Shown: positions 40,481-54,936 of the stretch, piece after piece | Numbering within the stretch: the stretch's first letter is position 1 | Layout of the letters: the number at the start of each line of letters is the position of its first letter | Assembly (NCBI RefSeq): GCF_900107705.1 | Contig: NZ_FNRE01000001.1 | Location: forward strand, 186,001 to 250,000 | DNA: 64,000 nucleotides | Reading direction: 5' to 3' | From: Prevotella sp. tc2-28 | Lineage (GTDB): Bacteria; Bacteroidota; Bacteroidia; Bacteroidales; Bacteroidaceae | Notes under the pieces: generated by a model | Told to the model about the DNA's origin: nothing | The model's database searches: none | What the model saw: only the letters and a program-made list of their open reading frames with translations | Made by a program: the position numbers and the translations under genes

Positions 40481-41029
40481 CTATCCTTTCAATTCCTCCA
40501 ATAGTTTAAATACCGTTGTAGAAGGATTTTGGAATGTTGCAAGTTTCTTTGCCCTTTCTACAGCCGACTCTCTATTTTTAGTAAACACAGCCTTCTCTTC
40601 TTCAGACAAGACACCCTTTTTGTATCCTTTCGATACCTTCTGATATTTCTGAACACACTTAACAGACGAAATCTCAGATTTTTGCTCCTGATAATGCAAC
40701 AAGAACCATAGTTCTATACACGGGTTAGAGACTATCAGTTCTGCATTAGGTATCTTTTGCAGTTGTTCCAACATCCCATCAACGTCCAAATCATACATCA
40801 AGAAGACTTTATCTTGCTCAGTTCTTACATATTCATTTTGGGAGCGTTCAATATAGTCTTCCGAAATATTCGACTTGCCTTTCTTTACTATGACCTGAAT
40901 GGGAGCCCGATACAATGAACGCAGGAATTTGACATATGCGATCTCCGTTTCACCCTCACAGAAAACAAAGAAGTTGGGCTTCATTTGTTTTCCCTTAGAT
41001 ATACGAACTTTTCTTCCCATCTTAGCCAA
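40481..41029 (-). CDS. RloB/AbiLii-like Toprim-type nuclease
   Basis: A 182-residue protein of the RloB family. FFVFCEGETEIAYVKFLRSL holds the acidic Glu of the Toprim-like fold and VFLMYDLDVDGM the metal-binding Asp pair. NPCIELWFLLHYQ is a conserved RloB segment. With an AAA15 ATPase it forms the AbiL/RloAB type of anti-phage pair, where the nuclease is probably released or switched on during infection. It overlaps rloA by 8 bases. Its base composition is AT-richer than the flanking housekeeping genes. Confidence 0.88.
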   Translation of the reverse strand: MAKMGRKVRISKGKQMKPNFFVFCEGETEIAYVKFLRSLYRAPIQVIVKKGKSNISEDYIERSQNEYVRTEQDKVFLMYDLDVDGMLEQLQKIPNAELIVSNPCIELWFLLHYQEQKSEISSVKCVQKYQKVSKGYKKGVLSEEEKAVFTKNRESAVERAKKLATFQNPSTTVFKLLEELKG

Positions 41030-42272
41030 GTCGTTTTAAGTTTGTCGACGATTCGTCAATATAGGGGATTGCATCAAAACGACCCTGAAGGTATGCCTTT
41101 TCAGCATCCATATTCTCACGGAAATCCTTAAAATCAAAGAGAGAATACAAATCTGAAGACCCGTCATCACGCTTGTTAACGAAATACACCTGGTCTTTCC
41201 TCAACTTTCTCATGTTGAGCAGATTAGTATTATGCGTAGAGAATATGAGCTGAGCCGATTCACTTTGATGGAACAGATTAAGAATATACTCCACCAGATT
41301 CACATGTAGTCCCATCGATATTTCATCAATCAGAAGAACTTTGTTGCCCTTGATGATATTCAGAATAGTCAACATCATGTGGAAGAACTCTTGAGTACCA
41401 CTCGACTCCTCTGAATAAAAATCAAATGGGACTTCCGGATTATTCCTATGGAAAGTCGTAATCTTCAACTGAGGCTTTTGTATATCATCCCTTGAAAGTA
41501 ACTGGTTACTCAGAGGGTCAAACACTGCAGTAGTCAGCGACCTCAATTCGTGCTGACTGCGAATATCTATAATATCACTATCTGCAGCCTTGAGCACCCT
41601 CAAAATCAAGTCCTTGTTCTCATTCAAAAGCGACTCTATGGAATAACTATTATAGCCAAAATAGTTCAAAATAAAACGCTCATTAAAATAGCGGAACACA
41701 TCCTTAGCTACATCACGATCCATCTGACTGGCACGAGATACGAAGAGCGTTTTTTTCGATGTATTACCAGCCACGTCCATAGGTCTGCGAATAGCAGAAC
41801 GGAACTCATAGATATCCTTCTTGTCTGGGCCTTTGCGTTCATCTCGTGAAAACACCAACTTTTTTCTACCGACAGGGTAATAATACAGTTCCTCTGTTAT
41901 AATCTCAGTTTTTGTCAAGGAGAAACTATACTCGTATTCAACACCCTCGATTAAGAATCGAATGTAAAATTTACTGGGCTTACCTATCCCACCGAATTTA
42001 AATGGAGTAAAAGCAAAGATTGTGTTCTCATTATAATTATGCGACTCGAAGATCATCTGCACACAAGCTCTTATCGCTTTGATAATGTTGCTCTTTCCTG
42101 ATGCATTAGCTCCATAGATAGCAACAGTCTTCAATAGCCTTTCGTCATTGCAAACGAAAGTATTACCCAACAGGTCCTTGGATTCTTTAGTCTGAAGACT
42201 CGCTGCCTGCATATCCAAAATCACTTCTTCGTTAATAGAGAAAAAGTTACTTAATCGAATTTGTAATACCAT
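41022..42272 (-). CDS. RloA/AbiLi-like AAA15-family ATPase
   Basis: A 416-residue ABC-type ATPase of the AAA15 branch. It has IYGANASGKSNIIKAI (Walker A), LLIDEISMGLHVNLVEYIL (Walker B and signature) and IFSTHNTNLL (H-loop). The start MVLQIRLSNFFSINEE at 42272 is used because a TTG farther up lies in the -7 element. It is the sensor or regulator partner of the RloB-like nuclease encoded after it. The pair sits in the segment bounded by 18-bp repeats behind dnaK. Confidence 0.88.
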   Translation of the reverse strand: MVLQIRLSNFFSINEEVILDMQAASLQTKESKDLLGNTFVCNDERLLKTVAIYGANASGKSNIIKAIRACVQMIFESHNYNENTIFAFTPFKFGGIGKPSKFYIRFLIEGVEYEYSFSLTKTEIITEELYYYPVGRKKLVFSRDERKGPDKKDIYEFRSAIRRPMDVAGNTSKKTLFVSRASQMDRDVAKDVFRYFNERFILNYFGYNSYSIESLLNENKDLILRVLKAADSDIIDIRSQHELRSLTTAVFDPLSNQLLSRDDIQKPQLKITTFHRNNPEVPFDFYSEESSGTQEFFHMMLTILNIIKGNKVLLIDEISMGLHVNLVEYILNLFHQSESAQLIFSTHNTNLLNMRKLRKDQVYFVNKRDDGSSDLYSLFDFKDFRENMDAEKAYLQGRFDAIPYIDESSTNLKRLG

Positions 42273-42299
42273 CTTGACTTCAATTTTGCAAAATTTCTG

Positions 42300-42331
42300 C
42301 AAATATAGTGATTAAAATAGAATAACACAAG
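42300..42331 (-). promoter_or_regulatory. Promoter of rloA-rloB
   Basis: Minus-strand CTTG (42328-42331), 20 bases, TATATTTG (42300-42307), 28 bases before the ATG. Confidence 0.68.
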
Positions 42332-43063: not shown

Positions 43064-44653
43064 TTAGAATCTATACTGCAACTTGATGTTTGCGGCGTGT
43101 CTGTTGAGTTCCGCATCACCACAGAATGCATCAAACATATCATGCCAGTCAACACCCAGATTCCATCTCTTGCCAAATTGTTTATTCACGGACAAGCAAC
43201 CATAGACAGGGGTGCCAAACATCTCACGTGTTGGTGAATTCCTGGTATAATAAATCACTTGCATTCCAATTTGCCAGTCGTAAGGGAGATAGGCTTTCGG
43301 AACAAATCTAAATGAGGCAAAGGTAGCACTCTTGGCTATATAGAGATTAGACCCGCCAGTCAGTGTCAACCCTTTCGTTTTCCAATAGGCCGACACATCC
43401 AGTTCTGTAAAATTCTCGCCATCTTCAATATCATAATAGCTGGCTTCCGTCTGCACAGTCAACTTCTGCCGACTATAGGCATAAGCCAGCTTTACCTGGT
43501 GAATATCCCATTCATCCAGCACACCCTTAGCCCTCGCCCATTCCTCACTGAACGGTGTATTGGTTTCCATAAAGAGAACTAAGTAGGTAGGATTATAGTA
43601 TTTGCGAAAATAGCCCAGCTGTACCTGATTGCGGCTATCTGGTACAAAGACGACGCAGGCATTTGTATTGTAACGGGTGTCAGAATGCTTTTGAGTAATG
43701 CCAAAATCCCTTAACTTATAGCGATAGAACATCACACGGTTGCCCACTGTCAACTTCCACTTAGGCAAGGAGTAGGTGAACTGCAGATAGACATCATGAT
43801 TGAATACATCCCAGTTCCTGCCCGTCACCTTTTGTTCGGTCATCAGGAAATCGCCCTCAACACCCAGCATCATGGACAGTCGCTCAGAAAACAAGGGCGT
43901 ATTCAGCTCAGCGACATACAATGGCAACTTGTTGGATAAGAGCGGATTACTATTATACTGGTAACCACCCGTAATGAGCAGTTCGGTGCCCTGTTCATTG
44001 AAGGTATGGAAGAATCGCGCCCTGCCCATGACTCTTCGTGACATATTTAAAGGCTGGTCAAGATATTGCTGGGTGAAATAGGTCAGTAACTTGTTCTTGT
44101 CATCAAACCGATTCGTCATGTGAAGCGTCAGAAACTCCTCATTCCATTCCTGATGACGATAAGACACATTGGCATAGAGATCAGTACTTTTACTGCCGTA
44201 TAAGGCATTCACGGTGCCAAGACCTGCAATGTCCTTCCCGAAGTCTCCCTGCCCTTCCACGAAACCTTTCAGCGTGTCAGGCATCTTCATGTTGATATCC
44301 AACACCTTGGCTATTCCAATGGTTCCCTTCGCAACACCCGTATTGTCACAAACCTGAATCTTGGCAATGTCCTTGGCTTTCATCTGGCTTAGAATCAACC
44401 TGATGTCACCATTCATTGGGACGTTGTTAATGCGGAGGTTATAGCTGGCTATGACATCCTCGTATCCGCCAATCATCATCTCCGGCATCATCTGGAGGAT
44501 ATCCATCAATGTTTCTTCTCCTGTCAGTTCCATTCGCTGAGGATAAATGATTGTCCTGTCTGCTTTTATCTCAATGATGGGCAGACTATCTTCTGCAGAC
44601 ATGGGGACTGACCAGAGCAGAATGCTAATGAGTATGAGAAATTGTCGATGCAT
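43064..44653 (-). CDS. TonB-receptor-like outer-membrane beta-barrel protein
   Basis: A 529-residue outer-membrane protein. The start at 44653 gives a signal peptide (MHRQFLILISILLWSVPMSA). Residues 30-120 look like a small TonB plug (LMDILQMMPEMMIGGYEDVI and YNLRINNVPMNG), followed by a barrel with alternating aromatic residues that ends LQYRF, a usual outer-membrane C-terminus. It lacks the carboxypeptidase-like and CNA-like N-terminal repeats of SusC, and at this length the barrel is shorter than that of classic receptors. It is 41 bases behind gltS on the same strand. The substrate is unknown. Confidence 0.78.
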   Translation of the reverse strand: MHRQFLILISILLWSVPMSAEDSLPIIEIKADRTIIYPQRMELTGEETLMDILQMMPEMMIGGYEDVIASYNLRINNVPMNGDIRLILSQMKAKDIAKIQVCDNTGVAKGTIGIAKVLDINMKMPDTLKGFVEGQGDFGKDIAGLGTVNALYGSKSTDLYANVSYRHQEWNEEFLTLHMTNRFDDKNKLLTYFTQQYLDQPLNMSRRVMGRARFFHTFNEQGTELLITGGYQYNSNPLLSNKLPLYVAELNTPLFSERLSMMLGVEGDFLMTEQKVTGRNWDVFNHDVYLQFTYSLPKWKLTVGNRVMFYRYKLRDFGITQKHSDTRYNTNACVVFVPDSRNQVQLGYFRKYYNPTYLVLFMETNTPFSEEWARAKGVLDEWDIHQVKLAYAYSRQKLTVQTEASYYDIEDGENFTELDVSAYWKTKGLTLTGGSNLYIAKSATFASFRFVPKAYLPYDWQIGMQVIYYTRNSPTREMFGTPVYGCLSVNKQFGKRWNLGVDWHDMFDAFCGDAELNRHAANIKLQYRF

Positions 44654-44694
44654 ACGATTTTTGAACATACCTATTACATTACACGATGAGGACC

Positions 44695-45969
44695 TTACAA
44701 CAGATTCAGGAAGGTGGTGATGATGGCGGTATTGATCAGGTCAGCGAACATGGCGCCGATGATGGGGACAATGAGGAAGGGCTTGACGGTGTAACGGTAT
44801 TTATAGCATACGGCACTCATGTTAGCCATTGCGTTAGGGGTTGCACCTAAGCCGAAACCGCATATTCCTGCACACAAGACAGCGGCATCATAGTCGCGCC
44901 CCAAAAGCGGGAAGGCTACAAAGAATACAAAGAGCCCCATCATGACAATTTGGGACACGAGGATGACGATCAGGGGCAGGGCAAGACTCTGCAGTTCCCA
45001 CAGCTTCAGGGATATCATCGCCATACCGAGGAACAAAGACAGGCAGATATTGCCCACACTGACTATCCGATCCATATCAAGCGACTTCTCTGCCCTCACC
45101 CACTTGCCATCCTCCTTGTAACGGAGGAATCCCATGACGTTGCGCACGATAGCAGCTAATATCAAGGCCCCGAAATAGGTGGGGAACGTGATGCCTGTCT
45201 TGGTAAGTAACCAGCTCATCAACGTGCCGGCACCCATGACCAGCAAGATGCAATAAGTAGCCTTCGCATACTGCTGGAACTCCTGTTCGTTGGTGCTGAC
45301 ACGCTTCTCACGACCTGCTGGCGAAGCCTCGTCACTCTCGATACCAGCCATTGCGGGGTCTATCTCTTCATCCTGTGGCTGCATCTGCTCGTGAGTCAGT
45401 TTCGTGCGGATTATCTTCTCTGCCAGTGGACCGCCCAGCATGGAGCCGGCAATCAGTCCGAAGGTGGCAGCAGCCATTCCGATTGTACCTGCGCCATGCA
45501 GTCCCATTCCCTCGAGAACGCTAGCAAACCCACCTGCCGTACCGTGTCCGCCTGTCATTGAGATACTACCAGCAGCCATACCAATTAAAGGGTCAACGCC
45601 CATGAACCGGGTAATTCCCATTGGCATCAGGTTCTGCAAAGTGATGATGACCACCAGCAGGCCCAGCATCACCAACAGCGTCTTGCCACCCTGTTTGAGC
45701 ACCTTCAGGTCGCTCTGGAATCCCACGCTGGTAAAGAATGCCAGCATGAAGACATCCTTCAACGTGCCGTCGAACGACACCTCCACGTCGCACCACCCGT
45801 AAAGTGCCAGGGTGAGCAATGAGAAGATGATGCCACCACTCACGGGCGATGGTACGCAGTATCTCTGGAGCAATGCGACTTTTCGCGTCAAGACCATACC
45901 CGCCATGAGCGCTAAGGCACCAATGGCAGCTGTCTGTATCATATCCAGTTCAATCGTAGTCATACGCAT
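44695..45969 (-). CDS. gltS: Sodium/glutamate symporter
   Basis: A 424-residue inner-membrane carrier that takes up glutamate with sodium. It has two inverted repeats of five helices with GGHGTAGGFASVLEGMG in the first re-entrant loop and GFGLGATPNAMANMSAVCYK in the second, both conserved in GltS. The loop between the halves (residues 205-230) is long and acidic. It is 16 bases behind the virE-like gene and 41 before the outer-membrane protein, so the three may share a transcript although their functions seem unrelated. Confidence 0.93.
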   Translation of the reverse strand: MRMTTIELDMIQTAAIGALALMAGMVLTRKVALLQRYCVPSPVSGGIIFSLLTLALYGWCDVEVSFDGTLKDVFMLAFFTSVGFQSDLKVLKQGGKTLLVMLGLLVVIITLQNLMPMGITRFMGVDPLIGMAAGSISMTGGHGTAGGFASVLEGMGLHGAGTIGMAAATFGLIAGSMLGGPLAEKIIRTKLTHEQMQPQDEEIDPAMAGIESDEASPAGREKRVSTNEQEFQQYAKATYCILLVMGAGTLMSWLLTKTGITFPTYFGALILAAIVRNVMGFLRYKEDGKWVRAEKSLDMDRIVSVGNICLSLFLGMAMISLKLWELQSLALPLIVILVSQIVMMGLFVFFVAFPLLGRDYDAAVLCAGICGFGLGATPNAMANMSAVCYKYRYTVKPFLIVPIIGAMFADLINTAIITTFLNLL

Positions 45970-45985: not shown

Positions 45986-48127
45986 TTATTTCTCTGTCAG
46001 CCAGTATGCCATGTGTTTCGCATTACGCTTGCTCTTGAAGTTGAACCGCACGTCGTTCAGGGCATTGCCAATCTTCTGGAAAGGTGTCTCAGGGTCGTAG
46101 TTGGGATATTTCACCGACAACTTGGCACTGATGTCACTCAGACTCCACCAGCTGGCTACTTCATCACTCGTGGGATTGGCAAACGTCTCGCCGATCATCT
46201 CCACCAGGTCGTTCAGTCGCTGGTAGGGCTCGTTCTCCTTGATGAGCATAGCTATCTCACTGTCGTTCAGCCAGTAACGCGCCCCACTGTTGAAGAGGTG
46301 CAGGGCCTGTGCGAAGATTTGTTCATGGTCCAGCGAGTCTTCGAAGTCAATGTTTCCCGTCACACCCACGCAGACGAACCGGCGGCTTCCCGTGGGATCC
46401 ACCAGGGGTTTCATCTGGTTGGTCGTCCCGATGAACGAGGTATATCGCCTGTACTGCCTGATGGTCTTGCCGTAGGGCGGACGGAACTTGACGTCAGCCG
46501 ATGAGAGCAGGTATTTCAGCACAATCTGTTGCGAGTTGGTGGTCTTGTCGAACTCGTCGATGTTGATGAGTGCAAACGAGGTCAGTGCGATGTTCAGGTC
46601 GAACTCGTTCTTGAAATTAATCTTGTCGTTGTAATAGTCGCGCAACTCGGGAGGCAGCAGGATTTTGCAGAATCGCGTCTTGCCACACCCCTGACGACCT
46701 ATCAGCAACGGTGTCAGCGCATTGCCTGTCAGCTGTCGGTCACTCTCGCGCCACTGTGCCACCATACCGACCAGCCAGTAGCGCAGATACATCGGCCAGT
46801 GTGGCTGGTCGGTAGGCACACGCTTAGCCAGTTCGCTGATGCGGTCTACCCCATCCCACCTCGGCAGTCCGTCCAGCCATTGGTTCACGGGGTCATACTG
46901 TTCGATGTGCATCGAGTCGATGAATCGGTTCATGTGTTTGTCAAATCCCCTCAGTCCCAGTTCGTTAGCCGTTAGCGACATACTGTTGCGCACCTCAGGC
47001 GTCAACGGGACGAACTCCTGGAAGTCCGAATATCGCTCGCGGTATTCGGGCACGCCCGTCAGCAGGTTCTTGCGCATCTCGTAGTTCGATTCGAGGAATA
47101 TCTCCGCCTTCATCTGGTTCAGGGTGTCGTCGGGCACGCTCTTCAGTGGACGAATCTTATGGCGCTTGCGATAGGCTTCCTGCTCCGTCACGCTATACAC
47201 CGTCTGGAAGGTTTTCTTCACCAACAGCTTGTCGCGGTTCAGTGCAGGATGCAGCAAGGTCAGCCCTTGGGCGTGAGCCAACGGAATGCCCTGGTCAAGG
47301 CACAGCGAGGCTATCTGCATCAGCAGCTCGGCCTCCTTGTTCTCATCGGGCAAATCGAAGTAATGCCCCAGCACATTTTCCACAATAAACTGCCAGTTCA
47401 GATGGTATGTTCGCGTGACGGTACGCCCAGGCATCAGCCTGTCTTCCTCGCGACTGATATTGACGGACTGCGGCTGGTCGTGCTTCAGCGTGTCGGCATA
47501 GAACGGGCGGGCATCCGGATTAAAGCCCATCTGCGGATCAGCACTCATATATACCGAACGGTCCAGGCGAGGCTCCAGGAACTCGATGTCCAGACCAAAC
47601 TGGTTCTGGTAAGCCCTTCGCGCCGTATCATATATATTATGGTGGAACTGACGGATGTCTTCTTCCTTCGTGGGCAACTTCTCGTTTCCTTTGGAGAGCG
47701 CGGGTGAGGTGCCGAACAACTCACCTCGGCACACAATCTTCACACTACGTCCCGAACCTCCCAGGAAACACATCAGCGTCTCAGGCAACTTCTTCGCCAT
47801 CTCCCTGATTTTCACGGCTTCCTCGTAGGTGGCACGGTCGTTCACCTCCAACACGACGAGTCCATTGTAGTTCATCATCACCCAATCGTCCTTCAACTTG
47901 CGATAGGAAGCCGAGAAACAAATCCGGGGCAACTTGATGCCACCTGCCCATTGTATGGATATCTGACCGTCTGGCAGTCTGTGCGGGTTCATCAGATGGT
48001 AAATCTCACGGTGGTACTTCACCTCCTTGTCCATCTTACCATTCCTGATGTCCTGAGCCAGATCCGCCAACTCGACACGATTGATGACTTCCGTCTTTCT
48101 TTTTCTTTTGAGGATAGATATTTTCAT
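45986..48127 (-). CDS. BT4734/VirE-type primase-helicase-like protein
   Basis: A 713-residue protein with an N-terminal BT4734-like domain (residues 1-260, GGSGRSVKIVCRGELFGTSP) and a C-terminal VirE/VapE P-loop domain (residues 400-640). The latter has LLIGRQGCGKTRFCKILLPP (Walker A), INIDEFDKTTNSQQ (Walker B) and FIGTTNQMKPLVDPTGSRRF (sensor and Arg). In mobile elements the VapE domain is a replicative helicase beside a primase, so a role in initiating DNA replication is an inference. The gene faces an HU-like gene across an iteron array and has a consensus promoter. No other replication gene of an element is present. Confidence 0.85.
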   Translation of the reverse strand: MKISILKRKRKTEVINRVELADLAQDIRNGKMDKEVKYHREIYHLMNPHRLPDGQISIQWAGGIKLPRICFSASYRKLKDDWVMMNYNGLVVLEVNDRATYEEAVKIREMAKKLPETLMCFLGGSGRSVKIVCRGELFGTSPALSKGNEKLPTKEEDIRQFHHNIYDTARRAYQNQFGLDIEFLEPRLDRSVYMSADPQMGFNPDARPFYADTLKHDQPQSVNISREEDRLMPGRTVTRTYHLNWQFIVENVLGHYFDLPDENKEAELLMQIASLCLDQGIPLAHAQGLTLLHPALNRDKLLVKKTFQTVYSVTEQEAYRKRHKIRPLKSVPDDTLNQMKAEIFLESNYEMRKNLLTGVPEYRERYSDFQEFVPLTPEVRNSMSLTANELGLRGFDKHMNRFIDSMHIEQYDPVNQWLDGLPRWDGVDRISELAKRVPTDQPHWPMYLRYWLVGMVAQWRESDRQLTGNALTPLLIGRQGCGKTRFCKILLPPELRDYYNDKINFKNEFDLNIALTSFALINIDEFDKTTNSQQIVLKYLLSSADVKFRPPYGKTIRQYRRYTSFIGTTNQMKPLVDPTGSRRFVCVGVTGNIDFEDSLDHEQIFAQALHLFNSGARYWLNDSEIAMLIKENEPYQRLNDLVEMIGETFANPTSDEVASWWSLSDISAKLSVKYPNYDPETPFQKIGNALNDVRFNFKSKRNAKHMAYWLTEK

Positions 48128-48163: not shown

Positions 48164-48195
48164 CAAATATACAAAATTTTTCGTCACAATGCAAA
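48164..48195 (-). promoter_or_regulatory. Promoter of the virE-like gene
   Basis: Minus-strand TTTG (48192-48195), 20 bases, TATATTTG (48164-48171). The first iteron begins 28 bases upstream of the -33 box, a good place for a regulator. Confidence 0.8.
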
Positions 48196-48222
48196 TATTT
48201 TTTTGAAAAAAATCAGCAATAA

Positions 48223-48344
48223 GCCTACATGCCTACACAATTTTCACTTAAACGACTGATTATCTGCACTTTTCAAAAAATCAAGCCTACACAAAGCCTA
48301 CACAAAGCCTACACTATGCCTTCACAAAAAACATACAGCCTACA
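48223..48344 (+). repeat. Left arm of GCCTACA iteron array
   Basis: GCCTACA occurs at 48223, 48231, 48285, 48296, 48307 and 48338, with a variant GCCTTCA at 48318. Steps are 8, 54, 11, 11, 11 and 20 bases. Most units are followed by CAA. The 11-bp steps put the units on one face of the helix. Confidence 0.85.
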
Positions 48345-48415
48345 CAAAACCTGCATAGGCTTCTAGCAAAAACGCGCTCGAAGAACCGCAAAATCTTCTA
48401 TTCAGACTATCTTCA

Positions 48416-48433
48416 AAATTCTCTAGAGAATTT
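48416..48433. repeat. 18-bp perfect palindrome, copy 1
   Basis: AAATTCTCTAGAGAATTT, fully self-complementary, between the two iteron arms. Confidence 0.85.
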
Positions 48434-48481
48434 AACCATTCCCTAGGCTACCAGCAATTACTGCCACGTATAGTAAGCCAT

Positions 48482-48499
48482 AAATTCTCTAGAGAATTT
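48482..48499. repeat. 18-bp perfect palindrome, copy 2
   Basis: Identical to copy 1. Centres are 66 bases apart, six steps of 11. The two copies lie near the middle of the array. Confidence 0.85.
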
Positions 48500-48608
48500 C
48501 AATACGATTCCTAATCAAAAAAGTTACAATCTCGCGCACTCTTTTTCGTTCCCTCGTATGGTAAATCTTTCTTTTCTGCGTGTTTTAGGTCAAAAAACAC
48601 ATAAATCG

Positions 48609-48712
48609 TGTAGGCACAGTGTAGGCTTTATGTAGGCTTTGTGTAGGCTCAAAAACCAAGATTTTATCGTATTTATCGGCATTTAAGCCACATTTTGTGT
48701 AGGCATGTAGGC
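48609..48712 (-). repeat. Right arm of the iteron array, inverted
   Basis: TGTAGGC, the complement of the left unit, occurs at 48609, 48620, 48631, 48642, 48698 and 48706. Read from the outside the steps are 8, 56, 11, 11, 11, the mirror image of the left arm. Flanking AT-rich tracts (near 48192 and 48720-48745) are also mirrored. Confidence 0.85.
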
Positions 48713-48795
48713 TAATATGAACTTTTTTGAAAAAATATTTTTGCAGCACAAACAACATCAAGAAACTCCAAAAACAAATATTTTCTAGAAATTTC

Positions 48796-48826
48796 TTTGT
48801 ATTCTCTCGAAAATATCGTATATTTG
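48796..48826 (+). promoter_or_regulatory. Promoter of the HU-like gene
   Basis: TTTG (48796-48799), 19 bases, TATATTTG (48819-48826), 25 bases before the ATG. Confidence 0.82.
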
Positions 48827-48851: not shown

Positions 48852-49235
48852 ATGAAGTACAAAATCAAGAAAGAAAGCAAACCCAACCTCGCCACCTTCG
48901 GCAAATACAAGGCCGTAGCCGTCCACGACAAAACCATCGAGAGCAAACAACTCGTCAAGGAAGTTGCCCGACGCATGTACATCCACGAAGGCACCATCAA
49001 CGGTGTCATCATGACACTCGCCGAAGTCGTCAACAGCCACCTGCGCGACGGCGACCGCGTCCGTCTGCCAGACTGGGGCATGATGAAACTCGAGATAGAA
49101 AGCGCGAAAGTAGACGATCCCAAAACCTTCCGCGCCAAGAAACACATCCGCGGTGTGCGCATCCACTTCCTCCCCAAAAGCGACGAAGGCACCCAGGAAC
49201 TCTACGAAGGCATCACCTTCGAGAAAGAAAAGTAG
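48852..49235 (+). CDS. HU/IHF-like DNA-binding protein
   Basis: A 127-residue member of the Bacteroidetes HU-like family. Residues 25-65 form the helical dimer core (IESKQLVKEVARRMYIHEGT and GVIMTLAEVVNSHLRDGD), VRLPDWGMMKLEIES starts the beta arms, and a 40-residue acidic C-terminal tail follows. It should bend or wrap DNA. It is divergent from the virE-like gene across the iterons, a pairing seen often in Bacteroidales genomes, so the two may act together on that region. Confidence 0.9.
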   Translation: MKYKIKKESKPNLATFGKYKAVAVHDKTIESKQLVKEVARRMYIHEGTINGVIMTLAEVVNSHLRDGDRVRLPDWGMMKLEIESAKVDDPKTFRAKKHIRGVRIHFLPKSDEGTQELYEGITFEKEK

Positions 49236-49942: not shown

Positions 49943-50941
49943 ATGTCAAAGAAGAAATTACAAAAATTACCACCCCATGAGATTATCAGAGTCTTTGAAG
50001 GTTTTGCAGGATATGGTGGAGCTTCATTTGGATTAAAACGCTCTGGCTTGAATTATAAGGTTATAGGAATGTCAGAGTTTAATCCATTTGCAAGCAAATT
50101 ACTCGAAGCAAATTTTCCTAATATTAAGAATTGGGGCGATATCACAAAGATAGATCCGAAAGAACTTCCTGATTTTGATATGTTTACAGGTGGTTTTCCG
50201 TGCCAGCCATTCTCTTCCGCAGGAATGCAAATGGGCGAGGATGACAGATATGGCAGAGGAACGTTATTCTATGAAATAATGAGGATTCTGAAAGAAAAAC
50301 GTCCTCGATACCTTTTGCTTGAAAATGTGAAAGGCTTCACAGCCAAGAAATTCGAGCCAACAAGAAACCGCATAAAGGAGATTCTGCGTGAATTAGGTTA
50401 TGGTGAACTTCAGTATGCAATACTCAACTCCTGCGATTATGGAATACCTCAAAATCGTGAGAGAATATGGATGTTTGCAATGTTAGGTGGTGTTCCAGAA
50501 GGTTTTAACATTGTTCCACCTAAAATGAAGTTGACAAAGAGGTTTGGAGATTTCTTGGATGTTAAAGCACCTGACTATCTTTATCTGTCACAGGCACAAA
50601 TAGAGCATCTAAAAGAGAAACATCGTATAGAATCTTTTGTGGTTGATGAGCCACTTTGCTTCGATGTTTACAACAAGAAGATAAAGACAAATGCATTGAG
50701 TATAACTATCACACAACCTGAGCACAATAGTTTAAGGGTAATTGAAGTCCCAAAAGAAGATGGTTTGGAAATCGTAAGAAAAATGTCCGTTGATGAACAA
50801 TTCCGTTTTATGGGATTTGAAGATGGTGAATTAAATTACGCAGGACAATCCTATTCTCAGTTGTCTACTAGAGCAGGCAACGGCTGGGATGTTAATTTGG
50901 TCGGTATATTGTTAAATCATATTTTTAGTCAGGTATTATGA
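49943..50941 (+). CDS. DNA cytosine-5 methyltransferase of a LlaJI-like system
   Basis: A 332-residue 5mC methyltransferase. Motif I is FEGFAGYGGASFGLKRSG, motif IV GGFPCQPFSSAG with the catalytic Cys, motif VI LLENVKGF, motif VIII NRERIWMFA and motif X near AGNGWDVNLVGILLNHIF. It should protect host DNA from the McrBC-like nuclease encoded next. It overlaps the next gene by four bases (ATGA). Codons are AT-rich compared with the housekeeping genes, which suggests transfer. The recognition sequence cannot be read from the protein. Confidence 0.93.
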   Translation: MSKKKLQKLPPHEIIRVFEGFAGYGGASFGLKRSGLNYKVIGMSEFNPFASKLLEANFPNIKNWGDITKIDPKELPDFDMFTGGFPCQPFSSAGMQMGEDDRYGRGTLFYEIMRILKEKRPRYLLLENVKGFTAKKFEPTRNRIKEILRELGYGELQYAILNSCDYGIPQNRERIWMFAMLGGVPEGFNIVPPKMKLTKRFGDFLDVKAPDYLYLSQAQIEHLKEKHRIESFVVDEPLCFDVYNKKIKTNALSITITQPEHNSLRVIEVPKEDGLEIVRKMSVDEQFRFMGFEDGELNYAGQSYSQLSTRAGNGWDVNLVGILLNHIFSQVL

Positions 50942-52740
50942 ACTTAGATTTAGGCTCTTTCGCATTTGGTACATACCTTAATGTCGGAACAGGCACTCCT
51001 TCATGGGGCACAGCGTTGGGACAATCAAAACCAGCATACAAATTTACATATCCAGGAGCAGAGGTGATACTCATTGGAATGGTTTATTGCTCCGTGCCAT
51101 TAGATAGGGTAAGCCTTCCTTTAGGGAAAGGTGGTCGGATTTATCAAGCTTCCGAACTTGATGAATGCCAAATTGCTTCTCTTTTTCGAAAAGTTTTTAT
51201 TAATGGGACAAGAATTGACTATCCTTTTATTATGGTCCTTGTTAAGGAGGATTCGGAAAGTCATTCAGGAAGAAAGAGTATTAAGTATTCTGATAAGAAT
51301 GCCTATCAGTATAATGGAGAACAATTTTCAAATTCCGAGTTTATTCGTCATGCTCGAAAAGTGTTAGGCTTAAACGAACAAGCTTGTTGGTTTGTATACA
51401 GCATAGAAGTATATAATCAAGATGAATTACATTTGTCAGCTGTAATTGTTGATGAGAATCATTCTATAAGATATGCAAATTCATCAGAACGACGAGATGC
51501 TTGGTTAGAATTGATACCTGATACATCCATTAAATCAGATTATAAAGGTGGACTAAATATAACAAATAGTGAAATACAGCAAACTGCTTCTTATTTCCGC
51601 CCCTACATCACAGCCATCAAATCCAAACCGTTTTTGTTACTTGCAGGTATCTCTGGTACAGGTAAGTCGCGTATAGTTCGTGAGCTGGCACGCGCATGTT
51701 GGGATGAAGGCACTGAGGAATATAAAGCACAGAAACCAAGGAACTTTGAGATGGTGCAGGTGAAACCGAATTGGCACGATTCATCGGAACTGATAGGCTA
51801 TGTAAGTCGTGTTAGTGGAGAGCCTGTTTTTGTAGCAGGAAATTTTCTGAAGTTCATCGCAAAAGCATGGGAAGAACAAGATGTTCCTTATTTCCTTTGT
51901 TTGGACGAAATGAATCTCGCTCCTGTAGAGCAATACTTTGCGGAATATCTTAGTGTGATAGAAAGTCGAAAGGCTGATGAAAAAGGGAATATTACGACTG
52001 ACCCTATATTAAAGAAAAGCCCAGAGGATTGGTATCGTATATTAACAAGCGAATTGACAGACGATGAAGACATACGCCATCAATTCCTTGAGGACGGCAT
52101 CTGTATTCCACAAAACCTAATCGTTGTTGGTACTGTCAATATGGATGAAACAACATTCTCATTCAGTCGCAAAGTACTTGATAGGGCAATGACCATTGAG
52201 ATGAATGAGGTCAATCTTTCAGGAGGCCTAGAAAACAAGTATGAGAGGATTGGCAAACTTGGCGCAGCTGAGCTAATCGGCAATGCTGTGGAGGGAGTTG
52301 ACATTTACTCCTCTTATAAGGAAGTTTGTGATACTGCTATTGATTACCTGCAGAAGATAAATGACAAATTAGAAGGTACGCCATTCAAGATAGCATATAG
52401 GACGAGAAATGAAGTGTTGCTTTATGTTGTAAATAACCTTCCTTATAAACAGATAGAGGGAGATGAAGATTCTGAGTATAAAGATGAGTTCGTAATAGCT
52501 CGTGCTTTGGATGAAATTACCAACATGAAGGTTCTTTCTCGAATAGAAGGAGATGAAACAAAGGTTAGCATGAAGTTTTTAGAAGGTCTTGGTGATACTA
52601 TCGAAGAGGCTCTAAAAGATGTTTTTGCAGAAATCTTTGATGAAGACGAAGATGAAGAACCATACAAATCAATCTCTCTTGCAAAGTTAGACGAGATGAA
52701 AAAACGTCTTTCATCAGGCTATACAAGTTTCTGGAGCTAA
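50938..52740 (+). CDS. McrB-like AAA+ GTPase restriction subunit
   Basis: A 600-residue protein with a 200-residue N-terminal domain of unknown fold, probably for DNA recognition, and an McrB-type AAA+ core. The core has LLLAGISGTGKSRIVRELAR (Walker A), FLCLDEMNLAPVEQYFAEYL (Walker B) and VVGTVNMDETTFSFSRKVLD with RAMTIEMNEV after it (the NxxD-like and Arg-finger region). It would translocate DNA and activate the nuclease of the next gene. The gene is coupled to the methyltransferase by ATGA and is 6 bases from the McrC-like gene. Confidence 0.9.
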   Translation: MNLDLGSFAFGTYLNVGTGTPSWGTALGQSKPAYKFTYPGAEVILIGMVYCSVPLDRVSLPLGKGGRIYQASELDECQIASLFRKVFINGTRIDYPFIMVLVKEDSESHSGRKSIKYSDKNAYQYNGEQFSNSEFIRHARKVLGLNEQACWFVYSIEVYNQDELHLSAVIVDENHSIRYANSSERRDAWLELIPDTSIKSDYKGGLNITNSEIQQTASYFRPYITAIKSKPFLLLAGISGTGKSRIVRELARACWDEGTEEYKAQKPRNFEMVQVKPNWHDSSELIGYVSRVSGEPVFVAGNFLKFIAKAWEEQDVPYFLCLDEMNLAPVEQYFAEYLSVIESRKADEKGNITTDPILKKSPEDWYRILTSELTDDEDIRHQFLEDGICIPQNLIVVGTVNMDETTFSFSRKVLDRAMTIEMNEVNLSGGLENKYERIGKLGAAELIGNAVEGVDIYSSYKEVCDTAIDYLQKINDKLEGTPFKIAYRTRNEVLLYVVNNLPYKQIEGDEDSEYKDEFVIARALDEITNMKVLSRIEGDETKVSMKFLEGLGDTIEEALKDVFAEIFDEDEDEEPYKSISLAKLDEMKKRLSSGYTSFWS

Positions 52741-52746
52741 ACATAT

Positions 52747-54936
52747 ATGGAACTTCTGACCATCAAGCACCAAGACTTCACCATGAGCATTGAATGTAGT
52801 AAGTTCGATGCCATTTGGGACAAGGCCGTGAGAAATGTAGGGGAAGAGAACCTGACCTCTAACTACTCATGGACGGATGGAGTGGTGTCTGTAGTCAGAC
52901 AGGATGAAGACGGCAACGAGCAAAACATCAATCAAGGAGAATCTGCTCCTGCTGTTTTCTTTGATAATGCAGAATATCCTATTTGGGTGGAGTTTGGCAG
53001 CCACGTAAAGGATGCCCGTTTTGGAAGCATGCTTCAAGGTGACAATGAGAACTTCAGTTTCCGAAGAGGCATTCTTGCAGGCTTTATCAATTACGGCAAC
53101 GATATTGGTAAGAGCGAAATTCTGATAGACTATAAAGTTGGTACAGAACTGCGCCACTTCCGTTTTGGCTTTGAGGTGCTCTCGACTAAACTGAATTATC
53201 ATGAGCATTGGCGCCAGATAATCGAAGACATAGAAAGCGAATATCGTATGCTTTCGCTTGACTATATGAAACGAACGTTTCATGGATTCTCACCAGAAAG
53301 CAGCGGAGAGACACCTGACCTTGTATGGTGGAGTATCTTTGCAGAGGAACAAAAAAAATTTATCAAAGCTGTAAAAGGTATCATTGAACGTCCTCGACAC
53401 CGACTTCATGGAATAGAAACCTATCTTCGTGCAGACAAACTGACGAGGATTCCCGTCAATCTTGAAAATGAATTGGCTGAGCATCGAAGGGAACAGGCTC
53501 ACCTCTATAGAGTTGAACAACAGATTCAGAGCAACGACACACAAGAAAACCGATTTCTAAAGCATGCCCTCGGACAGATAACCAATAAATACGAGTCGCT
53601 GAAGAAACGAATTGAGAGCATTAGAGGCATGTCCGATCCTTACAAGGAAGACATGAAGGAGATGCTCAACACTTTGAAACATCTAGAAAGGAATCCGTTC
53701 TTTCGTACTGTTGGACGTTTCAAAGGATTGAACCAAGAGAGTATGGTGCTACAAAAAGCAACTGGTTATAGTCAAGTTTATCGGACTTGGAACTTGCTGC
53801 GAAGAGCCTATTCTCTGAATGAAGGTATATATCGTCTCCAATCGAAAGATATTGCTACCCTTTATGAGATTTGGTGCTTCATTGAGGTGAGCCATATCGT
53901 GAAAGAGCTTTTGGGTATTGACGTGGATGTTGACCATCGCAACCGTATGGAAATGAACGGCATATTCACTTGGGAGCTAGGAAAAGGAGAACATTCGCGC
54001 ATCCTATTCAAGAAAGACAATGTAGAGTTGGCCGAATTGGTTTATAACCCTAAACATACTGAGAAAGAGAACGATAATATCAGCATGGAGAACCTGGTGG
54101 TGCCCACTGTAGCTCAAAAGCCTGACATTGTACTACAACTGACCAAGCAAGATTTGCAGAAGGACATGAAGATGACTTATCTCTTCGATGCAAAATACCG
54201 AATTGAGGGCAGAACACCAACAGGCGTTGACACACCCCCAGAAGATGCCATCAATCAAATGCATAGATATAGGGATGCCATCTATTACAAAGAGCACTCA
54301 TCCAATGAATTGAAGAAAGAAGTCATTGGTGGTTATATCCTTTTTCCTGGTGATGGACAAAAAGCCGATGTTGAAGTTTCTAAGTTCTATAAGACTATCA
54401 GTGAGGTGAATATAGGAGCCTTTCCTTTAAGGCCAAAAGACAAGGAAAATAGAAAACTATTGGAGCATTTCATCAAAGAACTGATAGAGACCAAGTCGTC
54501 TACAACTATTTCTAAGGTAATACCACAGAAGGGCGCCTTCATTGAAGTGGGTGATAGAGTGCTCATAGGAATGGTAAGGGAGAGTAGTCGAAAGAACTAC
54601 CTTAAAAAGTTCGAGGAAGGAACGGCTGACCTTTATTATACAGGTCCCTCGTTTCCTACGTCTATAGCATTGCATAATCTACACTATTTTATTCCTTATT
54701 TCAAGGGTAAGGGTATTCGTGATGTTTATGAGATAACAAGGGTGAGAACCATCAAAGGAAGTGAAGCTAAACAGATTGATATGGAAGAAGGAAAGGATGA
54801 TTTAAGGTTAGCTTTCCATCTTAAGCCGCATCATAAGTTGTCACAAGAATACCAAAACTTAAAGCCTCATGTTTTAATCGATTACACTTTCCTTGACACA
54901 ACTTTTGGCGAAATGGAAAATTATTTGGAAGTTTAG
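52747..54936 (+). CDS. McrC-like DUF2357 restriction endonuclease subunit
   Basis: A 729-residue protein with an N-terminal DUF2357-type region, a helical middle with coiled-coil character (residues 240-320) and a PD-(D/E)XK core seen as AQKPDIVLQLTKQD and YLFDAKYRIEG, with the catalytic Asp and DAK. A further 200 residues follow. With the preceding two genes it matches the layout of LlaJI: methyltransferase, McrB-like motor, McrC-like nuclease. LlaJI has two methyltransferases; only one is seen here. Confidence 0.88.
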   Translation: MELLTIKHQDFTMSIECSKFDAIWDKAVRNVGEENLTSNYSWTDGVVSVVRQDEDGNEQNINQGESAPAVFFDNAEYPIWVEFGSHVKDARFGSMLQGDNENFSFRRGILAGFINYGNDIGKSEILIDYKVGTELRHFRFGFEVLSTKLNYHEHWRQIIEDIESEYRMLSLDYMKRTFHGFSPESSGETPDLVWWSIFAEEQKKFIKAVKGIIERPRHRLHGIETYLRADKLTRIPVNLENELAEHRREQAHLYRVEQQIQSNDTQENRFLKHALGQITNKYESLKKRIESIRGMSDPYKEDMKEMLNTLKHLERNPFFRTVGRFKGLNQESMVLQKATGYSQVYRTWNLLRRAYSLNEGIYRLQSKDIATLYEIWCFIEVSHIVKELLGIDVDVDHRNRMEMNGIFTWELGKGEHSRILFKKDNVELAELVYNPKHTEKENDNISMENLVVPTVAQKPDIVLQLTKQDLQKDMKMTYLFDAKYRIEGRTPTGVDTPPEDAINQMHRYRDAIYYKEHSSNELKKEVIGGYILFPGDGQKADVEVSKFYKTISEVNIGAFPLRPKDKENRKLLEHFIKELIETKSSTTISKVIPQKGAFIEVGDRVLIGMVRESSRKNYLKKFEEGTADLYYTGPSFPTSIALHNLHYFIPYFKGKGIRDVYEITRVRTIKGSEAKQIDMEEGKDDLRLAFHLKPHHKLSQEYQNLKPHVLIDYTFLDTTFGEMENYLEV

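Follow-up and report, generated by a model that had tools for sequence, protein, structure and literature searches.

What is the function of a mirror-symmetric array of short repeats that stands between two divergent genes of a Prevotella chromosome? The question is raised by a locus of Prevotella sp. tc2-28 (contig NZ_FNRE01000001.1), located in a stretch of 64,000 nucleotides that was analysed as a whole and is referred to here as the window. A preliminary description of this DNA had proposed either the origin of a domesticated replicon or a control region where a single protein governs both divergent promoters.

Anatomy of the array and its flanking genes

The left arm, oriented on the minus strand, contains six exact GCCTACA units as read in the sequence. 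Two of them form an outer pair with a step of 8 (48223-48229 and 48231-48237, hence 48223-48237). The inner units (48285-48355) are exact at 48285, 48296, 48307 and 48338 and variant at 48318 (GCCTTCA) and 48349 (ACCTGCA). The right arm, on the plus strand, contains six exact TGTAGGC units: inner units at 48609, 48620, 48631 and 48642 (48609-48648, step 11) and an outer pair with a step of 8 (48698-48704 and 48706-48712, hence 48698-48712). Counted from the outside inward, the steps are 8, 54, 11, 11, 11 on the left and 8, 56, 11, 11, 11 on the right. Units, steps and inversion are exactly those of the preliminary description, from which only the variant ACCTGCA was missing. The two identical central palindromes that it reported were also recovered: the 18-bp sequence AAATTCTCTAGAGAATTT lies at 48416-48433 and at 48482-48499, 66 bp apart (65 or 66 bp in relatives). 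The outer arms make a 51-nt inverted repeat (complementarity 78%) and the element is bordered by AT-rich tracts at 48190-48219 and 48717-48745. Two promoter-like sites, judged by the Bacteroides-type consensus, sit immediately outside the arms: TTTG, 20 bp and TATATTTG for virE (48164-48195, minus strand) and TTTG, 19 bp and TATATTTG for HU (48796-48826, plus strand). Twelve of the 20 exact units of the 64-kb window fall within 490 bp of the array; in 100 shuffles of the whole window the exact-unit count had a mean of 5.6 and a maximum of 12. When up to two mismatches are allowed, AAATTCTCTAGAGAATTT occurs at six places in the whole 3.37-Mb genome, forming three pairs that each lie within such an element.

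The flanking genes had been described as coding for a primase/helicase-like and a DNA-bending protein, an assignment that was upheld. The gene virE (45986-48127, minus strand) codes for a BT4734/BF3469-type protein of 713 residues with a PrimPol-like N domain (65-200) and a VapE-like helicase domain (419-635), and the gene on the other side (48852-49235, plus strand) for an HU-HIG family DNA-bending protein of 127 residues. Motif I of PrimPols (archaeo-eukaryotic primases) is an acidic DxD/E. It is absent from the window VirE and from 11 aligned relatives, motif I reading LEVN in the former and LEIN, LTIG, LEVG or LRVS in relatives, and the primase activity of VirE is therefore doubtful. The N domain is PrimPol-like according to PADLOC; the available part of a published account (PMC8211822) regards VirE_N domains as catalytic domains of the AEP type that are usually joined to a helicase. 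In the helicase domain, Walker A (GRQGCGKT) and Walker B (NIDEFD) are both kept. Compared with solved structures, the VirE profile matched 7pds, which is labelled 'similar to D. nodosus vapE', through its helicase half (E 3.5e-14). A fold search with the VirE model, itself weak (mean pLDDT 71.8, pTM 0.39), returned as first match 7pds, PriRep1 with dsDNA (E 1.3e-5), at a TM-score of only 0.23/0.33. PriRep1 is a SaPI protein. By profile and model, the helicase half of VirE appears nearest to this SaPI-type replication helicase. The C-terminus is predicted to fold as H-E-H-H-E-E, a winged-helix-like arrangement. A close VirE was not found in viral contigs, and among the best phage and plasmid matches listed the identity is at most about 36%.

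Other genes recur or cluster in the vicinity. The gene gltS, often together with the p43064-type gene, recurs near the virE-HU module at seven loci including the window (43064-45969 there; L005, L006, L014, L047, L059, L149), in varying order and at varying distance. Beside HU, an AT-rich region (49943-54936) carries genes for a C5 methyltransferase, an AAA protein (McrB-like) and a DUF2357/PDDEXK_7 protein (McrC-like). On the virE side, an AAA_21 protein coded at 41022-42302 gave a strong AbiLi match in PADLOC.

A dispersed family of elements

The window array belongs to a dispersed family of elements including orphans, i.e. complete copies that lack virE and HU and lie in ordinary intergenic places. 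The genome of the window (G000) has two further complete elements, on contigs C26 and C25, with no adjoining virE or HU; in relatives the element is absent from these orphan places. Searched by pattern, the palindrome pair is present in 38 of 299 genomes of the genus, the reversed-pattern control giving zero among the matches listed. The isolate Prevotella sp. ne3005 contains eight elements. In other genomes, the 900 bp around 40 of 65 examined sites contained nothing that matched virE (E up to 1e-10) in the DNA examined; for two of these 40, L199 and L200, the neighbour may be missing since a contig ends less than 450 bp away.

The architecture was surveyed at 73 sites with 139 arms of readable units. 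An outer pair with a step of 8 (54 arms) or 7 (40 arms) was found in 94 of these arms, and its gap to the inner array measures 53-56 bp (64 arms), 65-66 bp (27 arms) or another length (3 arms). Inner steps equal 11 in 305 of 366 cases and 64 of 92 arms have six or seven units. Averaged over the 94 arms, AT content is highest immediately beyond the outer pair (0.80) and is about 0.6 towards the centre. The two palindromes together span 79 bp at 63 of the 73 sites and 80 bp at the other 10, in a search that allowed 72-88 bp. In an independent test of 71 virE-linked regions, which admitted any near-palindrome and spacings of 60-70, a pair was present in 44 (spacing 65 in 41, 66 in 3) and absent from 27. 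Some pairs have altered letters in both copies, e.g. ATTCTCATGAGAAT. Two elements have a particular layout: L147 (G242:C134:57283-57426) contains three palindromes at successive distances of 65 bp, and L247 of ne3005, located before a more distant virE (45% VirE identity), has GGTGACGGC-letter arms with 11-bp steps and quite different palindromes.

The spacing is thus kept while the spacer bases drift, as the preliminary description had proposed to check. Gap spacers of arms sharing the same unit letters are 45% identical between genomes (216 pairs), those of elements within one genome 58% identical (48 pairs), and shuffled spacers 30%. The outer units of same-letter arms are 92% identical between genomes and 98% within a genome, figures that are partly due to choice because the pairs were picked for equal letters. 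Between the window array and the orphan L097 of the same genome, identity extends to 79 of 84 bases in the units, all 36 in the palindromes and 212 of 354 in the spacers; the corresponding values for L098, which is reversed, are 89 of 109, 36 of 36 and 200 of 351. L172, a close relative of L097 that comes from a viral collection but has chromosomal genes, differs in its right arm by whole 11-bp units (five vs three). About 2.9 kb of other genes (L172 1309-4232) start exactly where the homology to the orphan element ends on the right.

The surroundings of the orphans are diverse. Among 29 orphans, 17 lie between tandem, 5 between divergent and 7 between convergent genes, and no Pfam family is shared by more than 2 of the 58 proteins coded nearest to them. 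The flanks of 32 virE loci comprise 124 ORFs, of which 91 were scanned, HU and some large ORFs being left out; no Pfam family is shared by more than 3 of these 91 proteins, and the 25 families listed, out of 111, include no integrase.

Unit letters and VirE lineages

In the arrays upstream of 74 virE genes, the letters of the units differ by lineage. The left and right arms of one element resemble each other, with a median similarity of 7.75 over 68 elements, compared with 3.0 when the arms come from other genomes. When single arms are taken from different elements of the same genome, the median is only 3.5 against this 3.0, since letter types are mixed in several of the genomes. For whole elements, the mean similarity is 5.49 within genomes (70 pairs) vs 3.24 between genomes (1641 pairs; 0 of 2000 shuffles). 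The letters of orphans were then compared with those of virE-linked arrays in the 13 genomes where both could be read, a set of 31 orphans. This set excludes L149, L162 and L213, whose letters are unreadable, genomes with no virE-linked array in the DNA examined and the orphans of G031 and G090, for which the virE arrays could not be read. At a similarity of 6.5 or more, 23 of the 31 orphans match a virE-linked array of their own genome, and 16 do so better than with each of 18 other genomes. The mean similarity is 6.68, a value reached by none of 5000 label shuffles (mean 3.50, largest 5.91). In G088 the orphans are of three letter types, each matching one of its virE arrays (5 of 5). The eight unmatched orphans are L138 and L140 in G099, L164 and L165 in G073, L167 and L211 in G025 and L228 and L231 in ne3005. 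L140 stands beside a virE relative of 27-29% identity. The third virE array of ne3005 had been predicted to share the letters of L228 and L231; this prediction failed, the array reading GTAGGG/GTAGGA.

The letter class follows the VirE clades, with 6 changes on a tree of 66. Residue 706 of VirE varies with letter type: it is M in 26 of 28 cases with TGTAG letters, H in 17 of 17 with TGTC and S in 7 of 7 with AGTAG. Its candidacy as a specificity code was rejected and it is kept as a lead only, there being a single independent change between TGTC and TGTAG. After correction for overall identity, residues 1-80 and the C-terminus show the best correlation with the letters (partial 0.34 and 0.26; 57/74 regions). 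One element of ne3005, L224 (centre 5080), is a hybrid with ATGTCGAA letters in its left arm and ATGTAGGC letters in its right arm. The letter type changes at or beside the right palindrome and both VirE types are present in this strain; elements have therefore recombined through their middle at least once.

The presence of elements and of VirE is also associated. A VirE of 62-80% identity is found in 30 of the 38 genomes with a palindrome pair, although in G031 and G242 only as a piece at a contig end. Among the first 150 genomes, a close VirE occurs in 13 of 18 with the pair vs 9 of 132 without. No close VirE was found in G098, G103, G105, G138, G149, G162, G243 and G255. G098 (99% complete) and G105 have no VirE at 1e-20; the elements of G098 nevertheless have well-formed units.

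Possible functions of the element

The interpretation initially proposed holds in part. An origin is consistent with the anatomy and with a SaPI-type helicase in VirE, while GC skew opposes a constitutive one. Skew changes at the array when the window is considered alone, a local excursion that coincides with the AT-rich group of genes next to HU; over whole contigs, there is no lasting turn at any of the three elements of G000 (C31, C26 and C25), which makes a constitutive origin unlikely. Cumulative skew falls steadily along C31 (388 kb), with values of -3187, -2851 and -4302 at 230, 250 and 310 kb and of -5933 at the end, and rises steadily along C26 and C25. The third-position curve of C26 has its maximum 0.9 kb from the orphan, to which no weight was given because the maximum is small and the curve wanders. 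Control of the divergent promoters may hold at the window locus, where both promoter-like sites adjoin the arms. As the sole function, with one protein repressing or activating virE and HU, it seems very improbable: it cannot explain orphans away from these genes, the convergent position of 7 of 29 makes a simple operator unlikely for them, and two arms with a palindrome pair at constant distance are more than an operator requires. A regulon of such operators was rejected, since the orphans are not at promoters of genes with a shared function.

Three further explanations were considered. The element of about 550 bp could be mobile in the manner of a MITE, the virE-HU module being its autonomous form and the orphans recent copies that need no function. 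An orphan between a DUF gene and a pdxB-type gene is indeed missing in five relatives (L180-L184) and another, before a histidine kinase gene, is also missing in relatives; the homology of two copies mostly ends about 235-365 bp from the centre, and the ends are AT-rich, inverted and alike between copies. This explanation is still rather unlikely, as no transposase or integrase recurs beside the elements among the families listed, the two orphan places of G000 show no definable target-site duplication, and free-riding copies would not long keep units and palindromes while their spacers diverge. A mobile island was rejected, there being no recurring integrase among the families listed, no close VirE in viral contigs and at most about 36% identity among the best phage and plasmid matches listed. 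The same constraint on units against drifting spacers speaks against orphans being mere remains of decayed virE-HU modules. A few do retain pieces, L149 the C-terminal part of virE (619-713), L213 and L211 parts of HU and L146 an HU without virE, and the sequences on either side of the G138 copies still look like divergent promoter regions; most orphans, however, have no such remains in the DNA examined, and the letters of 23 of 31 fit a present VirE, so that decay is improbable as a general account. Finally, a genome can have several sites, whatever the orientation of the neighbouring genes, their units are phased at 11 bp on one side of the helix and their palindromes are about six turns apart, all of which would suit a centromere-like site for chromosome organisation or segregation, with HU and VirE as architectural proteins. 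Given the intact helicase motifs of VirE, the absence by pattern from 261 of 299 genomes and the lack of a partition gene beside the sites among the families listed, we consider this role little probable as well.

To the explanation that we favour we give about an even chance: the element would be an origin-type site where VirE assembles as initiator-helicase, accompanied by matching orphan sites around the chromosome. One VirE oligomer would form on each arm, on one helix face owing to the 11-bp steps, the two facing each other in mirror image. Melting would take place in the AT-rich tracts next to the outer pairs. A second factor, either HU-HIG or some other protein, would hold the two central palindromes, which are separated by about six turns of the helix. 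We infer that VirE, and not HU, binds the units and that its binding may lead to unwinding; its action would occur only on induction, as the skew reveals no constitutive origin. If VirE recognises the letters, the same VirE could also act at orphans elsewhere in its chromosome. The anatomy, the fixed spacing, the drifting spacers, the letter match of most orphans with a virE array of their genome and the kinship of VirE's helicase half with PriRep1 are observed. The eight mismatched orphans, the 8 of 38 genomes without a close VirE and the failed prediction argue against strict VirE dependence.

Known systems share parts of this design. The alpha protein of phage P4, with ori and crr, is a primase-helicase-origin binder acting on more than one iteron cluster; unlike the elements described here, these clusters lie on one small replicon. 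The parC centromere of plasmid R1 likewise has two groups of 11-bp phased repeats, whereas the window element has no partition proteins. The BT4734/BF3469 proteins of Bacteroidales (VirE_N PrimPol-VapE) have the same domains; relatives on Bacteroides plasmids align with VirE over 94% at 31-35% identity, one of them with a divergent HU gene, and a virE on a Bacteroides finegoldii plasmid record is preceded by CTGACAATA repeats, some inverted (L177 5550-5680). In the four stretches read, such relatives nevertheless have no palindrome pair or long mirrored arms. In Porphyromonas gingivalis, also a member of Bacteroidales, the HU protein PG0121 is associated with a 77-bp inverted repeat at a capsule operon, with neither iterons nor virE in the available part of the report (PMC3969353). 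SaPI/PICI replicons come closest through the resemblance of the VirE helicase half to PriRep1 (VapE/PriRep type, weak in TM-score) and through two sets of short iterons near rep (PMC6092414, as far as available). In the accessible parts of the sources, PICI Rep proteins and iterons differ between elements (PMC6092414, PMC7581432) and SaPI Rep binds iterons via its C-terminal domain (PMC7581432). They differ in their AT-rich stretch, which as described there lies between the iteron sets, AT content being highest outside the outer pairs here. Also unlike them, the element has no integrase or phage genes recurring beside it among the families listed, and it has a conserved central palindrome pair and complete orphan copies elsewhere in the chromosome. 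The sequence data fit best an initiator-helicase assembly site of SaPI/PICI kind, devoid of island genes and accompanied by orphan sites that may be served in trans.

The orphan copies are the main new point beyond the preliminary description. No description of such an arrangement was found in the literature searched, most subscription journals and preprints lying outside its coverage. The orphans turn a curious repeat into a genome-wide system open to test in a cultured strain, ne3005, which combines its eight elements with two or more intact VirE genes whose home arrays match. The natural letter variants and the one hybrid element could reveal how such a helicase recognises its origin. More tentatively, Prevotella chromosomes may carry a network of non-autonomous, letter-addressed initiation sites where a resident VirE opens or re-replicates DNA on signal, each VirE lineage keeping and spreading its own set. 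If VirE does act in trans at orphans, a replication module of phage-satellite type would have become part of the chromosome, or would parasitise it.
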